32,202 bases of DNA from Leptotrichia wadei (lineage in GTDB: Bacteria; Fusobacteriota; Fusobacteriia; Fusobacteriales; Leptotrichiaceae). The notes below the pieces were generated by a model that saw only the letters and a program-made list of their open reading frames with translations, was not told where the DNA came from and did not search any database. Position 1 is the stretch's first letter. Every line of letters starts with the position of its first letter. This document shows, piece after piece, positions 31,218 through 32,092 of this stretch. Location of the stretch: positions 1 through 32,202 of the forward strand of contig NZ_AP019830.1 in assembly GCF_007990545.2 (NCBI RefSeq). The letters are read 5' to 3'. The position numbers and the translations under genes are program-made.

Positions 31218-31239
31218 CATTTCGACCGCGGTCGAAATG
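31218..31239. promoter_or_regulatory. Candidate parS centromere, copy 1
   Basis: Contains ATTTCGACCGCGGTCGAAAT (31219-31238), perfectly palindromic and extended by one base pair on each side. A run of 10 G/C-rich bases in DNA this A+T-rich is striking, and an identical copy lies upstream of parA. Confidence 0.75.
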
Positions 31240-31245
31240 GAAAAA

Positions 31246-32037
31246 CTATTCTAATTCTTTGATTAGTTCATTTGCAATATTTCTGTAATCTGTCGACGAA
31301 GGCGAGGACTTTTTATAAGTTATAATATCAAGATTTTCTAACATTGCATTATTTATATTTGAATCTTTTCTAATATAATTTTTGGATAAAATATTTGGAC
31401 TAAGTCCCAAGTCATTTGAATTAAAAAAATCTGTGTATTCTTTCAATGCATCTGCAAAAACTCTTGTTCTTTCTTCTACTTGAACAAAAAATACTTTTTT
31501 TAATTCTAGTTTAGGATTATTTCTTTTTCCAATAAAATATATTTTTATCAGATCATTAATACCATTGGTATCTATCAGGCTACATTTTGAAGGTGCTACA
31601 ATATAGTCTGTTGCATTTAAAATACCCCTTACCGTGTTATTTATTGAACCTTCAGTATCAATAATGATATAGTCATAGTCCTGTTTCAGTTGTTCTGTTA
31701 TATTTGAAAAAATATTAAAGATAGCTTGATTGTCAGAATAACTCGCAAAAAGCATTTCAAGTTGAAGTAATTTTTCATCAGAAATTATAACATCTACTTT
31801 ATTTTTGCTTGTAATATATTTTGCCCTATCAAATTTCATTGTTTCGTAACATTCTTTTATTAAGTCAAAAATTGTATTATCATTTTTTAAATTAAGATAA
31901 GTTGAAACAGCATTTCTTGGGTCAGTATCTATTAATAATATCTTTTTTCCTTTCAAGCTCATTGCATAAGCAAGATTAACAGCTGTAACGGTTTTTCCAG
32001 CCCCGCCTTTAGGATTTACTATGCTTATAACTTTCAT
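31246..32037 (-). CDS. parA: ParA-type partition ATPase
   Basis: A 263-residue deviant Walker ATPase: IVNPKGGAGKT with the signature lysine K10 and K15, LIDTDPRNAVS as the A' motif, and DYIIIDTEG as Walker B, with Glu where Pro is usual. There is no N-terminal DNA-binding domain, so it is of the small ParA/Soj class that uses nucleoid DNA to position plasmids. AAGGAGG precedes the ATG. It is cotranscribed with the partner downstream and flanked by identical palindromes. Confidence 0.9.
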   Translation of the reverse strand: MKVISIVNPKGGAGKTVTAVNLAYAMSLKGKKILLIDTDPRNAVSTYLNLKNDNTIFDLIKECYETMKFDRAKYITSKNKVDVIISDEKLLQLEMLFASYSDNQAIFNIFSNITEQLKQDYDYIIIDTEGSINNTVRGILNATDYIVAPSKCSLIDTNGINDLIKIYFIGKRNNPKLELKKVFFVQVEERTRVFADALKEYTDFFNSNDLGLSPNILSKNYIRKDSNINNAMLENLDIITYKKSSPSSTDYRNIANELIKELE

Positions 32038-32072
32038 AAAATACCTCCTTTAAAAATCTATTTATATTTTAT

Positions 32073-32092
32073 ATTTCGACCGCGGTCGAAAT
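32073..32092. promoter_or_regulatory. Candidate parS centromere/operator, copy 2
   Basis: ATTTCGACCGCGGTCGAAAT, identical to the copy between parA and its partner. It lies between the parA promoter and its ribosome site, so binding here could also repress the operon. Confidence 0.75.

Follow-up and report, generated by a model that had tools for sequence, protein, structure and literature searches.

The parA-orf194 locus among described partition systems

On plasmid pSM19035, which carries the type Ib partition system delta/omega, the parS sites and the par promoters overlap, and the sites before parA and the partner gene double as promoter control (PMC9499535). The archaeal SegAB system combines a ParA-like ATPase with a partner that is unrelated to ParB and binds palindromes before the operon (PMC9178275). 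The current study deals with a locus on contig C2 (NZ_AP019830.1) of Leptotrichia wadei that consists of parA, the gene orf194 for a protein of 194 residues, and two perfect palindromes (ATTTCGACCGCGGTCGAAAT), which very probably represent the binding sites of the orf194 family and for which a dual role as centromere (parS) and operator appears likely from sequence comparisons. The window, i.e., the whole stretch of DNA that was analyzed, is the entire contig of 32,202 bp from a two-contig, 2.34-Mb genome, and it was taken to be a plasmid because its close relatives are Leptotrichia plasmids. The locus is a variant of plasmid partition systems and not a new principle.

ParA of the window matches Pfam family AAA_31 (3e-34, residues 1 to 178) and the ParA-like partition protein of PHROG (8e-48), and its nearest relatives in the PDB are Soj/ParA proteins. 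The N-terminal helix-turn-helix (HTH) of type Ia ATPases is missing and the 263-aa protein begins at the P-loop, as in type Ib. With pSM19035, the locus shares this ParA architecture, the adjoining partner gene, and sites upstream of both genes, which are located here 37 to 39 bp before the start codons. The omega protein, however, is a small ribbon-helix-helix protein on arrays of 7-bp non-palindromic repeats, whereas the orf194 product is predicted, by a model and not from a structure, to be an all-helical HTH protein and is associated with a single 20-bp palindrome. The pairing of a ParA-like ATPase with a non-ParB partner and with palindromes before the genes is also found in SegAB, but SegB is an archaeal ribbon-helix-helix protein, and no sequence relation to orf194 was detected.

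Canonical ParABS systems (Spo0J/KorB/SopB type) resemble the locus in the combination of ParA, an HTH partner, and palindromic parS-like sites, several of which occur per replicon in relatives, and the TTTC...GAAA arms of the palindromes recall chromosomal parS. They differ in that neither the ParBc CTPase nor the HTH_ParB domain was found in the orf194 system and in that its site measures 18 to 20 bp rather than 16 bp. An assignment of orf194 to the canonical CTPase ParB proteins was rejected, as neither domain was matched by orf194 or 25 relatives in Pfam and NCBIfam; in hhalign comparisons with eight canonical ParB proteins, the HTH was aligned in register, but the result was not significant (P = 0.29). 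HTH_ParB (PF17762) is absent from all 13 Leptotrichia genomes, which represent 13 species, and from most Fusobacteriaceae searched, and it is present in several other genera of the same family. The partition partner of Leptotrichia plasmids has no family name.

The AlphaFold2 model of the orf194 product is all helical without any strand (mean predicted local distance difference test score of 83.9 for the whole protein and 90.5 for its core). The predicted layout comprises a disordered basic N terminus (residues 1 to 18), a long helix (35 to 73), two HTH-like helices (80 to 87 and 92 to 107), further short helices, and a C-terminal helix (162 to 193). Sequence searches with orf194 of the window returned no family in Pfam, NCBIfam, or the PDB, and a fold search of the PDB gave no match either; PHROGs of unknown function were hit (phrog_32652, 1.4e-13).

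Linkage of the palindromes to the orf194 family

In a first-pass annotation of the window, two perfect 20-bp palindromes flanking parA had been noticed without any other copy, regarded as very unlikely by chance in such A+T-rich DNA, and proposed as the centromere bound by the 194-residue partner. Both copies are exact (31219-31238 and 32073-32092), and the former extends to 22 bp. They do flank parA, and in finer anatomy one precedes the start codon of parA and the other that of orf194 (Table 1). The uniqueness extends to the genome level, since no further copy with up to three mismatches was found in the window or on either contig of the genome. Chance origin was rejected on the basis of this uniqueness, of 100 dinucleotide shuffles without a single match, of the expected counts in 32 kb (about 5e-9 for this exact 20-mer and about 0.14 for perfect 20-bp palindromes irrespective of composition), and of the survey of par loci described below. 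The G+C content of the palindromes is 50%, compared with 30% for the contig.

The same gene pair and the same two palindromes are present on Leptotrichia hofstadii plasmid pJCM16775-1, L. wadei plasmid pJMUB3934p2, and contig C18 of genome G015, with one central base of the gap copy in L. wadei as the single difference (TTTCGACCGTGGTCGAAA). These identical palindromes alone say little because the surrounding DNA is also about 90% identical. A natural control is provided by pJCM16775-1 (G006:C2, L057), which harbors two complete par systems in which each parA is accompanied by a different palindrome; the one of the second system reads TGTCAGTCGTGACTGACA. The same plasmid also contains a decayed third orf194-type gene, and the G015 plasmid with both window-type palindromes carries a third, different palindrome (TATCATTTCGCACGCGTGCGAAATGATA; G015:C18:11674, L068:2927-2954).

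Relatives of orf194 were found in 17 of the 33 genomes of the taxonomic family, and a 25-member profile detected them in 56 of 98 Fusobacteriota genomes. At 53 of the 60 newly fetched loci, the orf194-type gene adjoins a ParA homologue. Scans of IMG/VR yielded no matches to the palindrome or to any of three protein queries, and no paper on partition in Leptotrichia or Fusobacterium was found in the literature available.

The loci of more distant relatives contain other perfect palindromes, whose spelling changes with the protein, i.e., TTTCYCACRYGTGRGAAA, TTTCGCAANNTTGCGAAA, TGTCAGTCATGACTGACA, and TTCGGTCATGACCGAA. Scanned as TTTCNNACRYGTNNGAAA over the 33 genomes, the TTTCYCACRYGTGRGAAA class had at least four copies in exactly the six genomes with orf194 relatives of about 33% identity and one match each in three others; several copies are located near the gene, and in four of the six genomes one copy lies 23 to 27 kb away. 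Exact copies of TTTCGCAANNTTGCGAAA occur in only four of the 98 genomes, G003 (eight copies), G062, G082, and G058, always on contigs with a family member, and the distance from the gene to the nearest copy is at most about 0.5 kb in the first three and 37 kb in G058. With up to two mismatches, TGTCAGTCATGACTGACA was detected in nine genomes, and in all of them but G020 and G022, i.e., in seven, the match and the gene share a contig. Sixteen exact copies of TTCGGTCATGACCGAA are distributed over seven genomes of genus g13, most of them on the contig of the gene, and none was present in the 91 other genomes. Copies of the cognate palindromes elsewhere in the genomes are rare. On contig G021:C19 (L208, L209), which is probably a phage-plasmid, four palindromes of the TGTCAGTC class extend over 25 kb together with parA, an orf194 relative, and a contractile-tail sheath-initiator gene.

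The survey of par loci covered 61 protein clusters (70% identity) and perfect palindromes of at least 18 bp with at least six G/C within 400 bp of the par genes. Qualifying palindromes were found at 17 of these independent loci, compared with a mean of 0.12 and a maximum of 2 in shuffles of the same stretches. Near par there were 0.135 palindromes per kb, against 0.021 per kb in the remainder of these stretches, a figure that includes additional cognate copies. Among 18 representatives, the distances between half sites and those between proteins are correlated (Spearman 0.27; Mantel permutation P of 0.001 to 0.007), and the joint divergence of sites and proteins is real. As in ParABS-like systems, a cis site is linked to its partner protein and diversifies with it. 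The first-pass annotation had made its proposal dependent on linkage of the palindrome to par genes elsewhere, and this linkage is borne out by the identical palindromes around parA on other plasmids and by the cognate palindromes of related loci.

Linkage alone does not name the binder, and Rep_3-type initiator genes are located near par on several of these plasmids, so that ParA, a plasmid Rep protein, or a host regulator might recognize palindromes that merely travel with par. Such a different binder is highly improbable: ParA has no DNA-reading N-terminal domain, a host regulon is unlikely given the lack of copies outside par in the genome of the window, and on plasmids, at chromosomal loci, and in a phage-like element alike, the sites go with the orf194-type gene. 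A ParB-like orf194 dimer is most likely the protein that binds the palindrome.

Several observations nevertheless weigh against binding by orf194 or against a partition role. No perfect palindrome of even 16 bp was found near 43 of the 61 clusters, and the site may therefore be imperfect, gapped, or located elsewhere in many relatives. Site similarity correlates equally well with the HTH and with the rest of the protein, a pattern to be expected from shared descent alone, and as the co-diversification is not confined to the HTH, we do not propose a recognition code. None of the known DNA-binding structures compared resembles the predicted fold of orf194, and such a palindrome is lacking at the parA/UPF0137 gene pair of the Simkania plasmid discussed below. 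Finally, 17 of 22 measured Leptotrichia sites are located 22 to 60 bp 5' of the start codons of various genes, which an operator function alone would explain.

Proposed roles in promoter control and segregation

Intergenic positions account for 62 of 64 sites, compared with an expectation of 23%. According to one alternative, the palindromes are operators only and take no part in segregation; orf194 would repress parA, its own gene, and further genes of the element, and a centromere would lie elsewhere or be missing. Apart from the 17 Leptotrichia sites, this explanation draws on the position of both window copies 5' of start codons, on contig C28 of G015, where five sites precede five genes by 33 to 49 bp, and on relatives in which further genes besides parA and orf194 have such a site 30 to 40 bp 5' of their start codon. 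It is opposed by at least five TTCGGTCATGACCGAA sites between convergent genes in genus g13, by sites 7 to 37 kb from par in G021, G003, G062, and G058, and by palindromes within orf194-type genes, all of which argue for more than promoter control. The conserved order of parA and partner gene, as in partition systems, is a further argument against operators alone, which we consider unlikely. In L164, L175, L182, L184, and L185, perfect palindromes of 18 to 24 bp lie within the coding part of the orf194-type gene, and the probable binder thus seems to have its site within its own reading frame.

A dual role of the palindromes, analogous to that on pSM19035, would fit both the operator-like and the centromere-like positions. 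The original proposal of a centromere bound by the 194-residue partner thus has to be divided: the partner as binder is strongly supported by linkage and cognate palindromes, and the centromere is plausible but not proven, as the positions before start codons point at least as much to an operator. We infer the following mechanism. The orf194 product, a ParB-like ParA partner of an unnamed family, would recognize both palindromes specifically, with one dimer per palindrome and one HTH per half site (TTTCGACCG). From its positions upstream of parA and of orf194, the protein may repress both genes and keep their dose steady, and the same nucleoprotein complex would serve as the plasmid centromere. 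Short basic N termini are present in most members of the orf194 family, and known ParB proteins stimulate ParA through a peptide of this kind. The N terminus of orf194 could likewise stimulate the ATPase of nucleoid-bound ParA, whereby plasmid copies would be pulled apart.

Both window copies are situated 3' of a probable promoter in leaders that are probably transcribed, and the 30- to 32-bp palindromes of genus g13 between convergent genes look terminator-like with their A and T flanks. The palindromes might thus act as hairpins of mRNA leaders, e.g., in attenuation, translation control, or bidirectional termination. Neither a terminator-like site around par nor an Rfam family in the window was found, some sites lie outside leaders, and the same core occurs repeatedly on a single replicon. 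The two half sites of imperfect relatives change independently of each other; of 10 asymmetric sites, 6 retain a wobble pair, but 4 would break the transcript stem, and an RNA hairpin is for this reason very unlikely.

Two identical direct copies around a single gene, on a plasmid that encodes a serine recombinase, would also be compatible with a role in recombination or resolution, by which parA would become a cassette. The sites of serine resolvases are, however, compound and asymmetric, and relatives have one to eight copies in many arrangements, including inside genes. As no empty site was seen either, we regard this explanation as the least probable of all.

A possible link to Pgp6 and the neighboring genes

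Pgp6 is described as a protein of unknown function that is essential for the maintenance of chlamydial plasmids, which have no parB homologues (PMC7846284), and it is expected to act as ParB (PMC11895440). The Pfam model UPF0137 was weakly matched over the HTH region by 9 of the 25 orf194 relatives (best E value, 1.1e-6); the best bit score displayed was 24.1 bits (3.8e-5), which is below the Pfam cutoff of 34 bits, and orf194 of the window gave no match at E values of up to 1. We take UPF0137 to be the family of Pgp6. The UPF0137/CT583/Pgp6 proteins share with orf194 a ParA as gene neighbor (Pgp5 in the case of Pgp6). On Simkania plasmid pSn, the UPF0137 gene comes immediately after parA, with the order and direction seen in the window, and the orf194 profile scores it with 24 bits; in the window and at the 53 fetched loci, the orf194-type gene likewise comes after parA. 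The chlamydial comparison consists of this Simkania plasmid alone, and a PF03677 search of the window genome without a match is uninformative, as no control matched. The weak link between orf194 and UPF0137 is suggestive and opens the question of the role of Pgp6 on chlamydial plasmids to study via harmless relatives. A phylum-wide partition type, in which the centromere-binding protein is from an unnamed HTH family without CTPase domain and the palindromic parS is re-spelled with the protein, and which as a distant relative would account for the role of Pgp6 on chlamydial plasmids, can be put forward only tentatively. The pairing of site and protein, found from sequence alone in dozens of loci, supplies reagents for tests of binding and specificity, for which several palindrome classes, two of them on one plasmid, are available.

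Table 1. Positions of the par genes, the promoter, and the palindromes in the window
Feature	Position	Strand	Description
orf194	30597-31181	-	194 residues; proposed ParB-like centromere-binding protein
Palindrome copy 2	31218-31239	none	22 bp, CATTTCGACCGCGGTCGAAATG; parA-orf194 gap, 39 bp 5' of orf194 start codon; proposed parS and operator
parA	31246-32037	-	263-aa Walker-type partition ATPase with KGGAGKT P-loop at the N terminus, without N-terminal DNA-binding domain
Palindrome copy 1	32073-32092	none	20 bp; parA leader, 37 bp 5' of parA start codon; invariant in four plasmids; proposed parS and operator
Probable parA promoter	32146-32174	-	TTGACC-17-TACAAT, upstream of palindrome copy 1; consensus scan with 10/12 matches, weak by itself

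Both hexamers of the probable parA promoter are conserved among the four plasmids except for the final base of the -35 element. Just 3' of orf194, the 100 bp at 30500-30599 recur without any difference on L. trevisanii plasmid pJMUB3870-1, which has par genes of another class, and this stretch likely marks a recombination boundary. The window plasmid encodes two different Rep_3-type initiators (10762-11613, minus strand; 16782-17786, plus strand), and two are annotated as well on L. wadei and L. trevisanii plasmids. A large filamentous-haemagglutinin-like gene for 3,200 aa, preceded by a ShlB/FhaC-like transporter gene and followed by a small gene, occupies the region 18063-30292, and a second, truncated copy with its own small gene is located at 12663-14603; this region looks like a two-partner secretion or contact-inhibition locus.
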